Part shown: in pieces, positions 1-52,856 of the stretch
Layout of the letters: each line of letters starts with the position of its first letter
How positions within the stretch are numbered: the first letter of the stretch is position 1
Source of the DNA: a virus
DNA length: 52,856 bases
Virus record (IMG/VR): IMGVR_UViG_3300028399_000002
Location: 1 to 52,856 of that record
Direction: 5' to 3' (one strand)
Program-made: the position numbers and the translations under genes
The notes under the pieces: model-generated
The model's input: only the letters and a program-made list of their open reading frames with translations
What the model was told of the DNA's origin: nothing
Databases searched by the model: none

Positions 1-127
1 ATAGATACTCTTAGGAAGGAAAATTTAGGTTGTGTTCCGCTTCCTAAAGAAGTACATGAGTTGAGATACAAGATTCACTTGGCTCTCAGAAAAAGAAAAA
101 GTAAGTCCCCTTCAGAGGTGACTCTGA
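1..127. repeat. Terminal overlap, left copy
   Basis: These 127 bases are identical to the last 127 bases (52730-52856). The endonuclease frame that starts at 52412 continues without a break through the overlap into base 128, so the two ends join. 127 is a usual assembler k-mer length and the cut falls inside an intron gene, so I infer an artefact of linearising a circular contig rather than a packaged terminal repeat. Confidence 0.9.
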
Positions 128-252
128 AGTGCAAAGCTCCGAAATTGCGGGGAAACCCTAACGTAAAGTCGAGGGCAATCCGCAGCCAAGCCTCTGATGA
201 GGAAGGTTCAACGACTATAATGGAGCCATCTCAAGACGAGATGATGGGATAG
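1..252 (+). CDS. Intron-encoded LAGLIDADG endonuclease, C-terminal part
   Basis: This is the end of the endonuclease that starts at 52412; residues 107-189 lie here once the ends are joined. The last 40 or so residues are read through the intron core (P2 to P7), so their sequence is set by the RNA fold more than by protein function. The stop TAG sits in the P7 3' strand. Overlap of an endonuclease frame with intron core helices is known from other phage group I introns. Confidence 0.85.
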   Translation: MDTLRKENLGCVPLPKEVHELRYKIHLALRKRKSKSPSEVTLKCKAPKLRGNPNVKSRAIRSQASDEEGSTTIMEPSQDEMMG

Positions 253-289
253 TCTGAGCTGCATGGAAACATGCAGAATAACAAAACTG

Positions 290-311
290 TTACGGTCATA
301 TCGTAAGCTAA
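290..311 (+). CDS. Major capsid protein, exon 2
   Basis: Exon 2 is only 22 nt. Joined to exon 1 (51488-52389, ending with the first two bases of an Ile codon) it reads I-Y-G-H-I-V-S-stop, which completes the C-terminus of the capsid protein at 307 residues. TTAC at its start pairs with GTAA of the internal guide sequence (101-104) as P10. The splice sites rest on the U-G pair in P1, the terminal G at 289 and the restored reading frame; they are inferred, not measured. Confidence 0.8.
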
Positions 312-28532: not shown

Positions 28533-28629
28533 TTTCCTCCTCCGTAGGATAATGCTTACATCCAGTTACATAGCCCTGCGGTGAATCTATACAGACAGTA
28601 CCGCATATTTCACACACAAAATTACTCAT
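28489..28629 (-). CDS. Tiny zinc-finger-like protein
   Basis: The 46 residues begin NFVCEICGTVCI and have GCKHYP, giving a CxxC...C-x-H site. The ATG overlaps the stop of the polymerase gene (ATGA) after GGAGGAG, and the 3' end overlaps mazG by 44 nt. Function unknown. Confidence 0.55.
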   Translation of the reverse strand: MSNFVCEICGTVCIDSPQGYVTGCKHYPTEEENDNNRTTEGNSQDS

Positions 28630-30872
28630 ATCTCCTCCATTGAGCCCCAATTTTTACCTACTTTGAATGATACAGTAAACGGTATGTCCATCCAATCAAA
28701 TGTCTGAGATTCGAGAATCTCCTTTACCTTACGCATTGTTTTCTTGTAGGAGCGGTTAGGCAACGTCAAAAGAAAACTGTCATGTACTGGAAGGATTACA
28801 GGAGAATTATTTCGCTTCATCTCCGGAACCAATTCATTAGCAGCTTTTAAAAGAATAACCAGAGCACTATTCTGAATAGGATGGTTTCTTGCCTGCCGCG
28901 AATTAGTAACAAATCTTTTCATTCCAGTAGGTGATTCCACCCAACCCTCTTCTGGAAGAGAATCAAGCTTATCCCTCAACCTCCAGTGATGACGCCAGAA
29001 ACGGTCAAGAAACTTATAAGCATCTTTCTTTTCTATACCAGCCCAAAAAGCGAGGAGTCCCGCACCTCCACCATAAGATACGAGATAATTAATTTTCTTG
29101 CCAAGATCACGCTCTTCTTTTGTGACTTTCCTTTTGCCAAGAGCAACTTTAGCTGTTTCTTCATGTGGGTCAAGATCATCATAAAAGACATCAAGAAATG
29201 GTTCATCTTGTGACCAACAAGACATAATTCGCAATTCGATCTGGTCGTAATCTACTTCCAAGAACAAACCTTTATCTTCATGAGGAATAAAAACCTCGCG
29301 AACAAAATTGCGGGGACAGTTCAAGAGATTAGGCTTATTAGACTTAATCCTACCAGTAGTAGTTTCTCCAACCCACAGAGATGTAAAGACAAAATCCTTC
29401 TTCCCTACCCTAACAACATGCTTTTTGAGAGTTTCCAAAAATTTGTCTTTCCAGGATACATACTCAGACCAGCGAATAATCTTTTCAAGTGTAGGGTGAT
29501 GTCTTTTCTTAAGCATTGCTTCAAGTACCTCAGCCTTAGTAGAGGGCTCACCAGAATCAGTATATGCGGCATTAAACTCCAAAGGCTCATAACCAAGAAT
29601 ATCAAATATTAGTATCCGCTTGTGGTTTGCAGAATTCGGGTTAAATTCTTTTTCAGAGAGCCTTTTAAACTTTCTGATATACCTGTCATGTTCTACATCA
29701 AGTTCTTTTATCTTATCTACCAAAGTCTTTTGAGTTCTGTTAATCTGATCCACATTTACCCGTACCCCTTCTATCTCCATAGCAGCAAGGGTTTTGGTTG
29801 AAGGAAGAAGTACCTCAAGATATATTTTCTTTTCTGCTTCAGTTAACTGATCCCACAAGATATTCCGCAAATTGACTGTGTTTTGAGAATCGCGGCAGTT
29901 GTATACTTCAAGCTCCTTTCCTTCCAAAGCCATTTTATCCGAAGGTTTGTAGGGTTTATCTATCCCAAAATATACACAGAGAGACTCAAGGTCAAGACTA
30001 AGCCTTTGATCATAAAGGTAGGCGAGAAGCTTAGTATCATCCACTATATTTGCATCAATACCATTTGCCAGCATCCAAGCCCATTCATACTGAGCATTGT
30101 GGCATACAAGCGGAGTTTTCTCTAATGCTCTCTTGTGCTTTTTTAGATCATAGGAAAAGTAAGACTTTTTCCCATCACTCATCGAGATACAAACAAATTC
30201 TCCATCCGCCGGACGAGGAGCACGTTCATCCTCTTTGAAATGCACATACTCCGCTTTAAACTTTGTTTCAATATCCATCCCGTGAAGTTGTTTTGCAGTA
30301 GGAAGGGCTTTTGATTTAGTATACTTGATTTTTGGCTCTTTCTGAAAGTAGGAATATACTGACATCATTCCACGATCAAACATTCCCTTGGCTGAGACAG
30401 GATTCCGCAATTCGTAAGAAGGATGTATTACCGCAATTATAGGGATATGATAGTCATGAATAACTTTTCCATTAAGCTTCGTTATACCTTTGCCATGTAC
30501 TGTAAAAGAACCTAACAAAGCCTTAAGTGCAACACGGCCTACTGCTACAATCAACTTTGGATCAGTATATTCAATTTCTTCCAAAAGACTTTCATTACAA
30601 CATTTAATAGTTTTTGCATCTGGAGTCCTGTTATACGGCGGATGACAAGCTACTGCATTAGTTATAGATATCCGCAGACCCATCTTCTCAAGTTTCTTAA
30701 CATGCGGCCTGAGCATATCTCCAGAGTTCCCAACGAAAGGACGGTTTTCCAAGACTTCCTCTCTCCCTGGAGCTTCACCAATAAAAAGTATATCAGAATT
30801 TTTGTGGATTTCAGACTCCACGCATTCCTCGTCTTTCAAGGGACAATTATCACAGATACAAAAGTCATTCAT
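28626..30872 (-). CDS. polA: Family A DNA polymerase fused to a family 4 uracil-DNA glycosylase domain
   Basis: From ATG at 30872 the protein has 748 residues; an upstream in-frame start (31019) would overlap the preceding gene. Residues 1-190 are UDG-like: CDNCPL, GEAPG (32-36), PFVGNSG, ACHPPYNRTP and VIHPSY, with four Cys for an iron-sulfur cluster. Next is a DnaQ-like 3'-5' exonuclease (MDIET, HNAQYEW, YNCRD). The polymerase follows: motif A VDYDQIELR, motif B RDLGKKINYLVSYGGG and motif C VHDS, where cellular enzymes have HDE. The fused UDG could keep uracil out of phage DNA or guide the polymerase. Confidence 0.88.
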   Translation of the reverse strand: MNDFCICDNCPLKDEECVESEIHKNSDILFIGEAPGREEVLENRPFVGNSGDMLRPHVKKLEKMGLRISITNAVACHPPYNRTPDAKTIKCCNESLLEEIEYTDPKLIVAVGRVALKALLGSFTVHGKGITKLNGKVIHDYHIPIIAVIHPSYELRNPVSAKGMFDRGMMSVYSYFQKEPKIKYTKSKALPTAKQLHGMDIETKFKAEYVHFKEDERAPRPADGEFVCISMSDGKKSYFSYDLKKHKRALEKTPLVCHNAQYEWAWMLANGIDANIVDDTKLLAYLYDQRLSLDLESLCVYFGIDKPYKPSDKMALEGKELEVYNCRDSQNTVNLRNILWDQLTEAEKKIYLEVLLPSTKTLAAMEIEGVRVNVDQINRTQKTLVDKIKELDVEHDRYIRKFKRLSEKEFNPNSANHKRILIFDILGYEPLEFNAAYTDSGEPSTKAEVLEAMLKKRHHPTLEKIIRWSEYVSWKDKFLETLKKHVVRVGKKDFVFTSLWVGETTTGRIKSNKPNLLNCPRNFVREVFIPHEDKGLFLEVDYDQIELRIMSCWSQDEPFLDVFYDDLDPHEETAKVALGKRKVTKEERDLGKKINYLVSYGGGAGLLAFWAGIEKKDAYKFLDRFWRHHWRLRDKLDSLPEEGWVESPTGMKRFVTNSRQARNHPIQNSALVILLKAANELVPEMKRNNSPVILPVHDSFLLTLPNRSYKKTMRKVKEILESQTFDWMDIPFTVSFKVGKNWGSMEEI

Positions 30873-30879
30873 ACTAATC

Positions 30880-31047
30880 TCATTGAGTTTCAAGATATTC
30901 TCCATCTTCGATTGAATACCATTCCAAACCTGACCAAAGACAATGCGGGCAATAAACCTCGAAAGTATACTCACCTTTAGTGGGGTAATCTTGTTCTCCA
31001 TATTCAAGATCACAACCACATTCTGGACAACAGCCTTTTCTATTCAT
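30880..31047 (-). CDS. Small zinc ribbon protein, first early gene
   Basis: The 55-residue frame begins at ATG 31047 with AGGAGG 8 nt upstream and is the first gene behind the early promoter (31071-31099). GCCPECGC and VYCPHCLW form a classical two-knuckle zinc ribbon. It ends just before the polymerase start. A transcription or translation regulator is possible; unknown family. Confidence 0.7.
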   Translation of the reverse strand: MNRKGCCPECGCDLEYGEQDYPTKGEYTFEVYCPHCLWSGLEWYSIEDGEYLETQ

Positions 31048-42893: not shown

Positions 42894-43258
42894 TGGATTT
42901 AGGTAAAGCTTTATTATACCTTTTCCCTGAGGCTAAACCTGGCGTAGACTATGTTCTTCAGGATGATAGTGATGGGAAAGGACCTTATATAAAGGAATGG
43001 AATCTTCCGGACCCTATTCCCGATAAGCCAACATTGGTAGATGCTGAAAAGCAGTATGATTTGCAAATAAAGGCTAATACCTATAAGAAGAAAAGAAAGA
43101 AAGAGTATCCCAGTATAGGAGATCAGCTTGATGTTTTATGGAGTGTATTGGATTCTGCTGGTATCGTTGCGGCAGACCCCACAAAACCTAAAGATACTCC
43201 AGAGGGGATGTTGGCTTTTATAAAATCTATTAAGGCAAAGTACCCGAAGAATGGTTAA
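42893..43258 (+). CDS. Tail-fibre-associated small protein
   Basis: The 121 residues contain YPSIGDQLDVLWSVLD near residue 75-90, a motif found in small phage proteins downstream of tail fibre genes. The start overlaps the tailspike stop (ATGG/TAATGG) and the end overlaps terL by 8 nt. Confidence 0.6.
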   Translation: MDLGKALLYLFPEAKPGVDYVLQDDSDGKGPYIKEWNLPDPIPDKPTLVDAEKQYDLQIKANTYKKKRKKEYPSIGDQLDVLWSVLDSAGIVAADPTKPKDTPEGMLAFIKSIKAKYPKNG

Positions 43259-46200
43259 TAATGCTAAAATAGTTAATCAGCTGAACGCTTTTACCAATAT
43301 GTTCAAGTTCAAGTCAACTTGGGCATTCAAGAAGCTGATTACTTCACCAAGTAAGAAGATAGGTATCTTCTCCGGAAATCAAATGGGTAAATGCCTGTTT
43401 TTAAAGGAGAAATTGCTCACTGACTCAGGTTTGGTAGAAGCTGGAAAACTGAAAGGTCCCTCTTTGGGCGGCGAGACACTTGCAAATACTGTTTTTGAAG
43501 ATGATGTTTATGAAGTAACTTTTCAGACTGGCATAAAGATAAAATGTAATCTCGAACACCCGTTTTGGTGGAAGCCTTACAAAACAAAAAGAGGAGGAGA
43601 ATGGCGGTCTCTCAAAAGTATACAAGAGCATAAAATATCTACGCACGGTTCTAAGTATGGTTATGTTTACTTTGCGGATGCCTCAGAATTTAACTTAGTT
43701 GAAAATGAGCTGGTTGCTCCGAAACTTTTGGGCTATCTTTGTTCAGATGGTTATATTTCTTCTAATACGAGACAAGGTTTAAAGTTTACTAATAACAATG
43801 AAACTTTTCTTAAAGAAGTAGAAAATCTTGCTAAGGAATATTTTAATGGAATAGAGTGTAAAAGATATAAGAAAGGTAAAGGTTATGATGTGCTTTTTGT
43901 AGCTAACCATTGTAAAGGAAGTAATGCATTAAAAAATTATGTGCGAAGCTTAGAAATAAATAAAAATTCTTTTGGCAGTATTCTTGCTGGAAGGAGAGAG
44001 GATTTAAAAGAATTTGTAAAAGGTTTCTTCAATGGTGATGGGTATCTATTGATTAGGCGTAGGAAGAAAGGCTGGGGTAAACTTCCGCACATTGAAGTTG
44101 GCTTTTGTGTTGGTCCCAGCGAGAACAAGGCCTATGAACTTCAATACATACTTTGGAAACTTGGTATTTTTTCGTACGTATGTGCTGAAGAGTTTAAAAA
44201 GGCAAAGAACACTTTTTATCGAGTAAAAATTAATTCTTTTGATGTGCCAAGAATACTTGAGTTTTTAGAGGATACTAAGTACCCTGAAAAGTTTAAAGAA
44301 GCGAAGGAGATACTCAAGAAGAATCCTAATAAAAGAAATGAAAATAGAAATTGGGTATCTATAAAAAGTATCGAGTATGTTGGTAGGAAGAAAGTTGCTG
44401 GTATAACTACAAGTAGTGGAGAGCTCATCTCATATTGCGGCATGAAGACTCACAATACTTGTAGTGTTGCCTATCAGTATGTTCTTAGGATTCTCGGTCT
44501 GCATCCTGTACCGGAAAAGAATGTTGTTTACTTTGAATGTATTAACGGCCACACTTTTCAGCCGTTGGTTGCAATGAAGCTTGAGAAATGTGACAAATGC
44601 GGTGAGCCTCTTGCGTTACATGAAAGGTCCAGTAGAGTTTTTAGGTTTGCTTCTCAAACTCTACCTGGGCAAAGTAAGAATGTAAGTGATTCCGGTGAAA
44701 GTGCGGAAATCAAAAATACTCAGTATCCTGAATTTAAAAAGTGGCTCCCGAAGATGTTGATAAAAGACGATATTACAATTCGTAATACATCAATGATAAT
44801 CAAGGACATATTTAATGGTCCAGACATTATTGTTGAATTTGTGTCGTATAACCAAACTGTTCAGGGTACTGCTGGAGTTCAGCGTTGTGTGGCAAAGGAT
44901 CAAAGAGTTTTAAAGTCGAATGGTGTTTGGACTAAAATTCAAGATATAAAACCTGGTGATGAGTTAATTTGTGAAGCTCTCGGGGGTTACGGGAAGAGAC
45001 AAAGGGTAAATAAGGTAAAAAAAGCAGGACTTACTGGTATAAAGGATGTTTACAGGTTTAATTGCCAGAAAGGTATTTCTTTTGAAGTTACTTTAGATCA
45101 TCCAATCATGGTTCCAGGTAATGGCTCTGCTAAGTATAAGCTTGCTGGCGATTTAAAAGTTGGGGATTATGTGACTTGCAAACTGAGTGATATAGAGGGT
45201 GAAGATACTCTCGAAGATTGGAAGGTTGCTTTGCTTGGTTTATATCTCGGTGATGGTAGTAGTGCTTCAAAGAAATATGTAAAAATAACTAATAGTAACA
45301 AGGAATTAATTCAGTCTTTGGAAAGTGTTCTACCGGATTATTTGTATCTGAGAAAAGTTGAGATTGGCAATCATGTTCCAGATTACTATATCTCAAGTAA
45401 AACTGTTAGAAAGAATGAGGTTAAAGACTTTTTAGTATCCTTAGGTTTATGGGGTAAGACGGCTTGTGACAAGTTTGTACCGGATGAAATATTTAAGCAG
45501 TCAAGAAGTAAGATAGCTCTCTTTTTAAGGTATCTTTTTGCTGCGGATGGTTGGGCGAGTGGTCATACTATAGGTTACTGTTCGACTTCTGAGAGGCTTT
45601 GTCAAGATGTTTTTCTTTTGCTTCGCAGGCTTGGTATAAGAAGTAGTATAACTAAGAAAACTTTTTGTAATGGTTGGAGTACACAATGGTGGGTTACAAT
45701 TAATGCTTCGCGCGATGTGCTTACTTTCATAGATAAAGTTGGTATAGAAGGTAAAGACTTGGTTAAGGTAAAGGATGAAGCTACGCGTAGGTTTAATGTA
45801 AGAAACAAGAAGTCTTTGGGTAGTAACAATCTTCCCCAAAAGGTAAAGATAAAATCCATAGAGTATGTAGGTAAGAAAGAAGTTTATGACATTATGATGG
45901 AGACTGGCGGTTGGGATGAACGTGTAAAAAACGGGATAAAGAAGCAGAGAGGTGTTGCCAGAAGCCCGCGAAATAACTTTCTAATTCAAGGTGGAGTTGT
46001 TGTTCACAACTGCTCGATCTGGCTCGATGAAGAAGCCCCGTATGATTTTTATGAAGAGCAGCTCCCCAGACTTATTGCAGAAAACGGTGATATGATATTT
46101 ACCCTTACTCCAGCAAGTTATATAAGCTGGATGCATGATTATATTTTTGATAAGGCTAAGATATACTATAGGACTCAAGCTGTTTGTGATTTTCTAAAGA

Positions 46201-47144
46201 AGTACGAGAATAGGGATGTTAAGCGAATTGAGGTTACTGACAATCCTCATGACATAGTAGTAATACAAGCGGCTACTGATGACAACCCTGTTCTTGATAA
46301 GAATGCGATAGAGTCTCAATTTGAGACTATTGATGATACTGATGTACTTGCTATTCGTCGTTATGGGATATTCAAGCAGGTATCTGGTAGGATTTACAAG
46401 GATTTTGAAGCTGTTCATGTTATTGATGGCGATAAGTATTTTCCGGAGGGTATACCACACCATTACCTATTTGCTCGCGGGGTCGACTATCATCCTCAGA
46501 CTCCATGGGCTATAGGTATGATAGCTTTGTCTCCGACAAATGAAGCTTTTATTTTCGGTGATCTTGAGATATCGCCGGAAAGGTATACGGTTGCTGAAAT
46601 TATGGCTGAAGTTGCGAGACTCGGAGGTGATTATAAGTTTAAGTTTAATAAAATTGATCCGCTTGCGGAAGCGAATAAGAAAGACGGAGTTACTGTACTT
46701 GAAGACATAAACAGGATTTTTTATGAATATTCAAGAGAAGGTCTTTGCTACGGTGCTTATTGGTCAACGTGGGATACAAAAGGTGAAAGAGGTAGAGATG
46801 AGATACGTAAAAGATTGAAGAATGCGAAGCGTTGCGGTAAACCTTTCAATAACAAAGTTGTAGTTGATGGTAAGGAAGAATACCTTCCTACTCTTTGGGT
46901 TTTCTCTAAATGTAGACATGCTATAAAAAGTATGAAATTGTGGCGATGGGAAGAGTGGGGTGACTCAAAAGCTATTGTCACGAAAGATAAGAAAAATAAG
47001 CCTGAACAGAAATGGTCTCATATGAATATGGTATGGGAAGCAATATTTAAAGAACGAGGCTTTGTTCCGCCGAGGGTCAGAAATCCTTTTGAGATGAATA
47101 GGTACAGAAAGAAAAATCCAGGTTATTTTAAAGGGCGTAGGTAA
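43251..47144 (+). CDS. terL: Terminase large subunit, interrupted by two inteins
   Basis: The 1297-residue precursor gives a 567-residue terminase after removal of residues 48-402 and 546-920. The joined protein reads GNQMGK-T (Walker A) and VQR-CSIWLDEEAP (Walker B, with catalytic Glu), then FTLTPAS (coupling motif) and the RuvC-like nuclease start FARGVDYHPQTPWAIG. Between Walker A and B lies a zinc ribbon (ECINGH...KCDKCGEP). The motor pumps DNA into the prohead and cuts the concatemer. Both inteins must splice, as they separate catalytic motifs. Confidence 0.95.
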   Translation: MVNNAKIVNQLNAFTNMFKFKSTWAFKKLITSPSKKIGIFSGNQMGKCLFLKEKLLTDSGLVEAGKLKGPSLGGETLANTVFEDDVYEVTFQTGIKIKCNLEHPFWWKPYKTKRGGEWRSLKSIQEHKISTHGSKYGYVYFADASEFNLVENELVAPKLLGYLCSDGYISSNTRQGLKFTNNNETFLKEVENLAKEYFNGIECKRYKKGKGYDVLFVANHCKGSNALKNYVRSLEINKNSFGSILAGRREDLKEFVKGFFNGDGYLLIRRRKKGWGKLPHIEVGFCVGPSENKAYELQYILWKLGIFSYVCAEEFKKAKNTFYRVKINSFDVPRILEFLEDTKYPEKFKEAKEILKKNPNKRNENRNWVSIKSIEYVGRKKVAGITTSSGELISYCGMKTHNTCSVAYQYVLRILGLHPVPEKNVVYFECINGHTFQPLVAMKLEKCDKCGEPLALHERSSRVFRFASQTLPGQSKNVSDSGESAEIKNTQYPEFKKWLPKMLIKDDITIRNTSMIIKDIFNGPDIIVEFVSYNQTVQGTAGVQRCVAKDQRVLKSNGVWTKIQDIKPGDELICEALGGYGKRQRVNKVKKAGLTGIKDVYRFNCQKGISFEVTLDHPIMVPGNGSAKYKLAGDLKVGDYVTCKLSDIEGEDTLEDWKVALLGLYLGDGSSASKKYVKITNSNKELIQSLESVLPDYLYLRKVEIGNHVPDYYISSKTVRKNEVKDFLVSLGLWGKTACDKFVPDEIFKQSRSKIALFLRYLFAADGWASGHTIGYCSTSERLCQDVFLLLRRLGIRSSITKKTFCNGWSTQWWVTINASRDVLTFIDKVGIEGKDLVKVKDEATRRFNVRNKKSLGSNNLPQKVKIKSIEYVGKKEVYDIMMETGGWDERVKNGIKKQRGVARSPRNNFLIQGGVVVHNCSIWLDEEAPYDFYEEQLPRLIAENGDMIFTLTPASYISWMHDYIFDKAKIYYRTQAVCDFLKKYENRDVKRIEVTDNPHDIVVIQAATDDNPVLDKNAIESQFETIDDTDVLAIRRYGIFKQVSGRIYKDFEAVHVIDGDKYFPEGIPHHYLFARGVDYHPQTPWAIGMIALSPTNEAFIFGDLEISPERYTVAEIMAEVARLGGDYKFKFNKIDPLAEANKKDGVTVLEDINRIFYEYSREGLCYGAYWSTWDTKGERGRDEIRKRLKNAKRCGKPFNNKVVVDGKEEYLPTLWVFSKCRHAIKSMKLWRWEEWGDSKAIVTKDKKNKPEQKWSHMNMVWEAIFKERGFVPPRVRNPFEMNRYRKKNPGYFKGRR
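43392..44456 (+). mobile_element. Intein 1 in TerL (Walker A), with LAGLIDADG endonuclease
   Basis: It spans 355 residues from Cys48 (GNQMGK|CLFLKEK) to Asn402 (KTHN|T), with Thr as the +1 residue. Block A is at the start, block B is CNLEHPFWW with His, the LAGLIDADG motifs are LLGYLCSDGYIS and FVKGFFNGDGYLL, and the C-terminal His-Asn is intact. The removal restores GNQMGKT. All splicing residues are present, so it should be active. Confidence 0.95.
44886..46010 (+). mobile_element. Intein 2 in TerL (before Walker B), with LAGLIDADG endonuclease
   Basis: It spans 375 residues from Cys546 (GVQR|CVAKDQ) to Asn920 (VVHN|C), with Cys as the +1 residue. Block B is VTLDHPIMV, the endonuclease motifs are LLGLYLGDGSS and FLRYLFAADGWAS, and block F is VYDIMMETGG. 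The removal restores VQRCSIWLDEEAP. A long insertion between block F and the end (WDERVKNGIKKQRGVARSPR) is unusual. Confidence 0.95.
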
Positions 47145-51487: not shown

Positions 51488-52411
51488 ATGGGTAATCCTG
51501 TTGTGAGTTCTGCCTTCGTTCGTTTGCTGGATGACCGTCTTGATAAGGTCAAAGAGGATATATTCAAGGACCTGCCAAGTCAGATAGACAACTTGTACAC
51601 TGTTGCAAAGTCTGAGAGGGCTTGGCACGAGTTCTTTGAAGTGGGTTCTCTGCCTGATATTCCTGAGTTCAATGGAAAGATCAGCTACTTGCCGATCCAT
51701 CCTGGTTTCCACACCAAGATTGAACATAAGGAGTATGCTGCGGGAGTCCAGTACGAGCGGAAGCTGCTGGATGACAAGCGGTATGACGTGTTCGAGAAGC
51801 GTGGTGAGAAGCTTCTGAAGAGCGCGCATCGTACTCGCGAGAAGATAGCGATTGAGCCTTTTGCCTATGCCTCTTCTGCTTCGTTCAGCTACATGACGAG
51901 CGAGGAGGGAGTGGCTCTGGTATCCAGCTCGCATACCACGAAGTCGGGTACTTCGACTTCTTCAGGCTTTGATAATGCGGGTTCGTCTGCACTGTCCAAG
52001 TCTGCGGTTGCGACTACAAGGATATTGATGAGGCAGTTCCGTAACGATATCAGTGAGAGGATAGACATGAGCGATAATTTTGCTCTTGTTGTTCCTGATG
52101 CTCTCGCGGATACCGCTTACGAGATCGTCAATACTCCTAAGGGTCTGGATACTGCCGAGGGGAACGTGAACCCTCAGTATGGTAGGTATAAAATCATCGT
52201 GCTTCCGAGGCTCGATGATTATGATACCAATAACTGGTTCATGGTGAACCTCGATCTCATGAAGGAGTCGCTTATTTGGTTTAACCGTATTGAGCCTGAG
52301 GTTGCTTCTACGTGGGATTTTGACACTCTGTTGCTCAAGACCCGTGTGTACTTCAGGTGTTCTTACGGTTGGATAGATTGGCGCTGGATTTACGGATCAA
52401 TTGTGAGCTAA
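51488..52411 (+). CDS. Major capsid protein, HK97 fold; unspliced reading frame
   Basis: The 307-residue protein shows the features of HK97-fold capsid proteins: helical N-arm, MSDNFALVVPDAL and YGRYKIIVLPRLDD, WFMVNLDLMKESLIWF and a C-terminus YFRCSYGWIDWRWIYG. AAGGAGG lies 7 nt before ATG. Exon 1 ends at 52389; the 22 nt 52390-52411 are already intron but encode IYGSIVS-stop, while exon 2 (290-311) gives IYGHIVS-stop. Both forms have 307 residues. The intron start therefore mimics the lost exon. Confidence 0.9.
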   Translation: MGNPVVSSAFVRLLDDRLDKVKEDIFKDLPSQIDNLYTVAKSERAWHEFFEVGSLPDIPEFNGKISYLPIHPGFHTKIEHKEYAAGVQYERKLLDDKRYDVFEKRGEKLLKSAHRTREKIAIEPFAYASSASFSYMTSEEGVALVSSSHTTKSGTSTSSGFDNAGSSALSKSAVATTRILMRQFRNDISERIDMSDNFALVVPDALADTAYEIVNTPKGLDTAEGNVNPQYGRYKIIVLPRLDDYDTNNWFMVNLDLMKESLIWFNRIEPEVASTWDFDTLLLKTRVYFRCSYGWIDWRWIYGSIVS

Positions 52412-52856
52412 ATGGACGTACTCGACTCATATGTAGCAGGGTTCTTTGATGGTGAAGGTTGTATATCTTCACAGGAAAGTTGGATACCTGGAAAGTATGA
52501 AAAATTCCCGCGTATAAATCTTCAAATTTCTATAACTAATACTGATAAAGAAGTTTTGAATCTTATACGTGGAAGGTTTGGAGGTCAGATAAGCAAGCAT
52601 ACTAAGAAAACTGGTAAGTTGTGTTATGCTTGGAAACTAACAGGTAAAGACAAAATGAGGGTTTTCCTTTTGTCTGTGCTCCCCTACCTGATAGTTAAAA
52701 AAGAACAGGCTTTGCTTGCTTTGGAATTTATAGATACTCTTAGGAAGGAAAATTTAGGTTGTGTTCCGCTTCCTAAAGAAGTACATGAGTTGAGATACAA
52801 GATTCACTTGGCTCTCAGAAAAAGAAAAAGTAAGTCCCCTTCAGAGGTGACTCTGA
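52412..52856 (+). CDS. Intron-encoded LAGLIDADG endonuclease, N-terminal part
   Basis: ATG follows the unspliced capsid stop codon directly (TAA-ATG), so translation is coupled to the capsid gene on unspliced RNA. A single LAGLIDADG motif, YVAGFFDGEGCI, is at residues 7-18, then ISITNTDKEVLNLI and LLSVLPYLIVKKEQALLALEF, as in homodimeric phage and organelle endonucleases. The protein has 189 residues once the ends are joined. It would cut intron-less capsid genes to spread the intron. Confidence 0.92.
   Translation, partial: MDVLDSYVAGFFDGEGCISSQESWIPGKYEKFPRINLQISITNTDKEVLNLIRGRFGGQISKHTKKTGKLCYAWKLTGKDKMRVFLLSVLPYLIVKKEQALLALEFIDTLRKENLGCVPLPKEVHELRYKIHLALRKRKSKSPSEVTL
52730..52856. repeat. 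Terminal overlap, right copy
   Basis: Identical to bases 1-127; see the left copy. Confidence 0.9.

Follow-up and report, generated by a model that had tools for sequence, protein, structure and literature searches.

A mobile group I intron that probably carries a built-in substitute for the end of a phage capsid protein

The window, by which we mean the whole stretch of 52,856 nucleotides of viral DNA that was analysed, represents a circular phage contig of 52,729 bp, the ends of the record overlapping by 127 bp (positions 1–127 equal 52730–52856). The contig has been cut inside the element described here, so that the intron crosses the contig join. A chimeric assembly at the 127-bp overlap was considered and judged unlikely, the same layout being found within single contigs of three other uncultured phages (L092, L107, and L241). 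A scan of genome contigs for a host gave just distant relatives in metagenome-assembled genomes, and the host was not found. Elsewhere, the window contains a 797-aa ORF (28626–31019, − strand) in which a uracil-DNA glycosylase domain (PF03167, E 6e-25) is fused with a DNA polymerase of family A (PF00476, E 1e-57), and a 1297-aa ORF (43251–47144, + strand) containing an intein (PF14890) as well as three stretches of LAGLIDADG_3. The features at the 3' end of the capsid gene are as follows.

51488..52389, + strand: first exon of the gene for the HK97-fold major capsid protein, its last bases being ...CTGGAT, with GGAU at the 5' splice site
52390..52411, + strand: the mimic, i.e., the first 22 nt of the intron, reading YGSIVS-stop and re-encoding capsid residues 302–307 plus the stop codon
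52412..52856, + strand: LAGLIDADG homing endonuclease ORF, part one, which goes on past the contig join at 1–252
1..252, + strand: LAGLIDADG endonuclease ORF, part two, overlapping the ribozyme core
66..276, + strand: ribozyme core of the group I intron, scoring 82 bits against Rfam RF00028 (gathering score 50)
101..108, + strand: internal guide sequence GUAAGUCC, forming P1 with GGAU^UUAC (52386–52393) and P10 with UUAC of exon 2 (290–293)
289..289, + strand: omega G, the terminal guanosine of the intron (3' splice site 289/290)
290..311, + strand: exon 2, the native capsid end, reading YGHIVS-stop and matched by the C-termini of 101 intron-less relatives

The interrupted gene encodes an HK97-fold major capsid protein, as is shown by family and, partly through a predicted model, by fold. 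The protein matches Pfam family PF25209 (E 5e-12) and the major head protein family PHROG 371 (E 3e-14), and its AlphaFold model (pLDDT 88) matches HK97-type capsids (E 7e-12). Residues 301–304 form a confident terminal strand in this model, and a truncated capsid protein would therefore be predicted to lose structure.

The intron comprises 629 nt, running from 52390 to 52729 and then from 1 to 289. Its identification as a group I intron, proposed in a first-pass annotation made from sequence alone, held, given the RF00028 match listed above and the P1 and P10 pairings. The guide GUAAGUCC pairs at 8/8 positions with GGAU^UUAC at 52386, the sole such match in the stretch scanned, and the GUAA of the guide goes on to form P10. 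The endonuclease ORF (189 aa in total) opens with an ATG directly after the stop codon of the mimic (TAAATG), another claim that held, and ends in the core. Its first 148 aa match LAGLIDADG_1 (PF00961, E 2e-7).

Two capsid ends can be read at this locus. The mimic (52390–52411, TTACGGATCAATTGTGAGCTAA) continues the unspliced frame as W-I-Y-G-S-I-V-S-TAA, and exon 2 (290–311, TTACGGTCATATCGTAAGCTAA) continues the spliced frame as W-I-Y-G-H-I-V-S-TAA; the protein is 307 aa long either way. The first-pass annotation had these two readings and lengths right, as well as the agreement of the two 22-nt stretches at 16 positions, and both frames have now been read. Its count of two silent changes among the six differences failed, since three are silent third-base changes (GGA/GGT, ATT/ATC, and GTG/GTA); the other three all fall within codon 304 (TCA/CAT).

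To establish which end is native, we used a reference set of 101 distinct capsid ends from intron-less relatives, a comparison that the first-pass annotation had proposed. All 101 fit the pattern of exon 2, which shows that exon 2 is the native capsid end. Val306, a Ser, Ala, or Thr at 307, and the position of the stop codon are found in 101/101 ends and Gly303 in 97/101, while residue 302 is mostly Tyr (80/101; Phe in 11/101) and residue 304 is His in 54/101 and Ser in 19/101. One relative (L032) ends in GHIVS, its protein being identical to that of exon 2 in the window and its DNA matching at 22/24 nt. The existence of these intron-less alleles of the same site is also what is expected for a homing intron. 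One locus without a normal capsid end (L210) was set aside as a small deletion or sequencing error and not an intron. Every residue of the mimic in the window, and of the three further mimics described below, occurs naturally at its position among the intron-less ends. Thus, the GSIVS of the window mimic lies within the natural repertoire and is a plausible working capsid end.

The arrangement is not confined to the window. L092, L107, and L241 carry related introns at exactly the same nucleotide (GGAU^). Each intron brings seven substitute codons for the capsid end, a LAGLIDADG ORF next to them, and a ribozyme core, and exon 2 in each phage encodes the native end. The unspliced and spliced readings are WIMGHEVS and WIYGHQVS in L092, WIFGSEVA and WIYGHEVA in L107, and WIFGSQVS and WIYGQNVS in L241. 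The four endonucleases have diverged to 40–47% identity. A family endonuclease ORF inside the intron is the mark of a mobile intron, and the window meets it, with related ORFs in the three other phages. The cores of L107 and L092 score 62.5 and 60.8 bits, respectively, and that of L241 scores 48.0 bits, slightly below the gathering score of 50 (E 1.6e-9).

All four introns keep helices P3–P9, with 10 compensated pairs, and all four have a U.G pair at exon position −1, a P10 of at least four pairs, and a terminal G. Guide and exon bases co-vary across the introns, including in P10 at the first base of exon 2. In L092, L107, and L241, P1 is formed by 7–8 pairs within exon 1, and the first bases of the intron itself pair poorly with the guide; the dual use of TTAC by P1 and P10, noted in the first-pass annotation, therefore holds for the window alone. 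In core, U.G pair, terminal G, and P10, the element has the anatomy of a group I self-splicing intron; its excision and the ligation of the exons are inferred, as there are no RNA data.

These cases, four in all, were found in different ways. L092 and L107 came from scans with core-sequence patterns, and L241 was reached via relatives of the L107 capsid protein. A full-protein scan with the window capsid and a profile scan gave intron-less relatives only, and scans with the endonuclease gave mostly endonucleases located in other genes. Among 271 loci, none had this core and exon 2 without a mimic. Within this phage group, at least two other sites in the capsid gene are occupied by group I introns (L092, L233, L239, L253, L258, L248–L250, L260, and L241 1758–1988), some of them with an endonuclease in the P6 loop, and L092 has two introns within one capsid gene. 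The introns of L233, L239, L253, L258, L248–L250, and L260, and the first intron of L092, lie upstream and have no mimic.

What the mimic keeps is the protein sequence and not the DNA. Identity between mimic and exon 2 is 16, 9, 14, and 12 of 22 nt in the four phages, the lowest value being that of L092, in which the Ser codon (AGT versus TCA) and the stop codon (TAG versus TGA) differ outright, showing that it is protein that has been conserved. Gly303, Val306, Ser or Ala at 307, and the stop codon are kept in 4/4 mimics, and the probability that random sequence would provide a stop at the native position together with G303, V306, and S/A/T307 is 4.4e-5 per case. The protein identity also exceeds that expected when the same DNA changes are placed at random (p 0.0024, 1e-5, 0.0038, and 0.0056 for the four phages). 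Selection acting on the mimic is an inference from these data.

In DNA, many other capsid ends (88/101 for L092) are at least as close to a mimic as its own exon 2 is, which suggests that the mimics may be foreign capsid ends and not tuned copies. A recent origin of the mimic by duplication of exon 2 within the same phage is not supported, least of all in L092 with its 9/22 nt. The mean match to natural capsid ends is 15.3, 14.6, 15.9, and 15.6 of 24 for the four exons 2 versus 13.6, 12.7, 13.1, and 12.5 for the mimics. The mimics lean toward rarer residues, with a residue other than Tyr at 302 in 3/4 (versus 21/101) and Ser304 in 3/4 (versus 19/101; p about 0.03 each, n = 4). Of the changes in the mimics, 23 fall within 11 nt of the junction and 14 further on (p 0.08). 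Conceivably, this recoding stops the endonuclease from cutting the junction of exon 1 and mimic, an inference made without cleavage data.

The mimic may also serve the endonuclease. In L107 (TAGTG) and L241 (TGATG), the capsid stop codon shares bases with the endonuclease start codon, and in the window the two are directly adjacent (TAAATG). A Shine–Dalgarno site for the endonuclease lies inside or abuts the mimic in three of the four phages and is absent from exon 2, with pairing energies for mimic and exon 2 of −12.4 and −2.9 kcal/mol in L107, −7.3 and −1.7 in L241, and −7.3 and −0.2 in L092. The window mimic has no clear site (−3.1 versus −2.7 kcal/mol). Translation of the endonuclease by re-initiation coupled to that of the capsid protein is thus likely, albeit inferred. 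In L107 (7666–8235), the endonuclease ORF reads through the entire core and enters exon 2 in the capsid frame, and its last residues, RYGHEVA, are those of the native capsid end. In L025 (1343–2033), a relative of the window endonuclease sits in a group I-like intron that begins on or close to a stop codon (..AGK-TAG) and finishes immediately ahead of a TAA; this position perhaps lets the spliced and unspliced RNAs end in the same way, the splice sites being unsettled.

Free-standing LAGLIDADG genes occur just behind the stop codons of intron-less capsid genes in L010 (3553–4281), L022 (629–1375), L053 (951–1430), L054, L055, L079 (3527–4264), and L206 (2907–3293), making the capsid 3' end a hotspot for such genes. 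No intron was found beside the free-standing endonuclease in the two loci tested (L053 and L206). The window endonuclease groups with those of L053 and L054 (51% identity; support 87/96), which lie 36 nt behind their capsid genes, and the endonucleases of L092 and L107 group together (support 99/92). This kinship with free-standing genes suggests an origin for the mimic: it is likely, though inferred, that a real capsid end was acquired along with a free-standing endonuclease gene. A "capsid end plus endonuclease" cassette would have fused with an intron, as in collaborative homing, and the captured capsid end would have remained as the mimic. Such an origin fits mimics to which many other capsid ends are as near as their own exon 2. 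A further feature of collaborative homing is present, since a free-standing relative of the endonuclease lies beside the same gene in intron-less phages (L053/L054). Another element, intergenic, recurrent, and resembling a tRNA T-arm (..GGGTAAGCGGAGGGTGAAATTCCCCC..GTGTGCATGAGACAGGGCAG..), lies immediately behind the capsid stop in, e.g., L009, L014, L015, L021, L063, and L073; it had no Rfam match in the scanned loci.

The best reading, which we consider likely, is that of a mobile group I intron equipped with its own replacement for the capsid end. The reading frames, the ribozyme anatomy, the recurrence in four phages, and the protein-level conservation of the mimic are shown; it is inferred, without RNA or protein data, that splicing takes place, that unspliced RNA is translated, that capsid protein with the mimic end assembles, and that selection acts on the mimic. 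In this reading, a mobile intron with a LAGLIDADG gene would have invaded the capsid gene seven codons ahead of the stop, bringing those codons along in recoded form. mRNA that is unspliced, whether early or because it is never spliced, would give a full-length capsid protein with a GSIVS end, and ribosomes halting at the mimic stop could start on the adjoining endonuclease ORF via the stop/start arrangement, aided in three of the four phages by a Shine–Dalgarno site. Splicing would take the intron out and give the native GHIVS end. No truncated capsid subunits would arise from either RNA fate, and the intron would tolerate the conflict between splicing and translation of the endonuclease into the ribozyme core. 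The claim in the first-pass annotation that splicing is nearly neutral is supported as far as capsid sequence goes and strengthened by the three further phages. Its claim of a full capsid protein without splicing is confirmed for the frames; splicing itself and the acceptance of both forms by the virion remain inferred.

A bolder reading describes a "self-sparing" intron, in which one stretch of host-gene end would keep the protein whole, provide the stop/start and ribosome-binding signals of the endonuclease, be recoded against the intron's own endonuclease, and have arisen repeatedly by cassette fusion. This combination is compatible with the evidence, but we lean slightly against it.

Of the rival explanations, the one that survives best, though still unlikely, is that the mimic is a passive leftover of endonuclease acquisition that no selection maintains. 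In its favor, the window endonuclease is sister to the free-standing, intron-less ones of L053/L054, further free-standing genes lie at the same place in L010, L022, L079, and L206, and the DNA of the mimics is about as similar to other capsid ends as to exon 2 of the same phage. Against it, four deeply diverged copies keep the conserved residues and the exact stop despite many silent changes. As an account of origin, this rival agrees with the best explanation; as a claim that the mimic has no function, it leaves this conservation unexplained.

Two further rivals are very unlikely. In one, splicing is dead, the mimic has permanently replaced the native end, and exon 2 is a relic, as in fungal mitochondrial hybrid genes. 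The layout is indeed that of Glomus and Allomyces, in which some displaced native ends are not expressed (PMC3630166), but exon 2 is intact in 4/4 phages and nearer to natural capsid ends than the mimic is, the cores are intact, and P10 changes in step with the first exon 2 base. In the other, the phage wants two capsid isoforms, one with the mimic end (altered at 302–305) and one with the native end, in a ratio set by splicing. The excess of uncommon residues at 302 and 304 in the mimics (see above; p about 0.03 for each) speaks for this; however, one form suffices for intron-less relatives, and recoding to spare the intron from its own endonuclease would give the same residue bias. Finally, the idea that the likeness reflects P1/P10 pairing constraint plus chance, which rests on the guide bases that intron and exon 2 share for their first four bases in the window, is all but excluded, having been rejected through the three further cases: the intron starts of L092, L107, and L241 pair poorly with the guide and the mimic is present nonetheless, so that ribozyme pairing does not explain it, and the likeness spans all seven codons through the stop at the per-case probability given above.

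The closest parallel is found in fungal mitochondria (atp6 of Allomyces macrogynus; atp6, atp9, cox2, and nad3 of Glomus sp.; PMC3630166). There too, an endonuclease gene near the 3' end brings a substitute C-terminus that has diverged in DNA while remaining alike in protein, and the native end lies downstream. In the mitochondria, however, no ribozyme excises the insert and the foreign end replaces the native one, whereas in the phages an intact intron surrounds the endonuclease and either end would be usable. Of the features of the Allomyces/Glomus type, two diverged C-termini flanking an endonuclease ORF are present; use of the substitute end alone is not met, as the intact core and conserved exon 2 indicate splicing. 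Hence, the phage element works partly like this type but is not classed as a member.

Other systems share single aspects. The group II intron in Azotobacter groEL (PMC4465626, citing Michel et al. 2007) is likewise mobile and located at the extreme 3' end, at the stop codon, of an essential and highly expressed gene; it differs in being a group II intron with a reverse transcriptase, and it is reported to be inserted at the stop codon itself, without a seven-codon copy of the protein end (Michel et al. 2007). Mycobacteriophage LittleE (PMC3706429) has a capsid-gene group I intron with a LAGLIDADG-type gene, a 5' splice after U, and a terminal G, as here, but its endonuclease is on the opposite strand, its splice site lies just past the maturation cleavage site, and it has no mimic. 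Splicing of the LittleE intron was shown by RT-PCR, and its authors presume that extremely efficient splicing is needed (PMC3706429). In a cyanophage psbA intron, there are in-frame stops and unspliced RNA is thought to give no functional protein (PMC5931967).

In the T4 td intron, the ORF of the endonuclease, I-TevI, also overlaps the core, and translation competes with splicing, translation that reaches the core lowering splicing (PMC2988022); stops in frame near the start of group I introns are believed to prevent ribosomes from entering the core (PMC3984707). Here, both effects would combine with a harmless protein outcome. T4 td delays translation of its endonuclease (PMC2988022), whereas the window intron would make the conflict harmless by means of its substitute C-terminus. 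Collaborative homing (PMC3984707, PMC2988022) is alike in that an intron and a free-standing endonuclease come to share one site and may fuse into a mobile intron. It differs in that a carried-over capsid end is not described in the relevant sections of these papers, and cleavage by the phage endonuclease is inferred. In the literature searched, which did not include subscription journals, we found no report of a group I intron that re-encodes the end of its own gene.

Selfish introns in essential, highly expressed genes are generally thought to be tolerated only with very efficient splicing and tight control of the endonuclease. Here, the cost of non-splicing has apparently been removed, as the intron supplies a usable substitute protein end. 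One practical consequence is a hazard for annotation: an unspliced gene call looks complete at 307 aa, so that such introns are missed and the last capsid residues are mis-annotated. If the reading is true, the element represents a new resolution of the conflict between endonuclease translation and ribozyme folding, and it would be a phage counterpart to mitochondrial C-terminal capture and a readable record of the fusion of an endonuclease with an intron.
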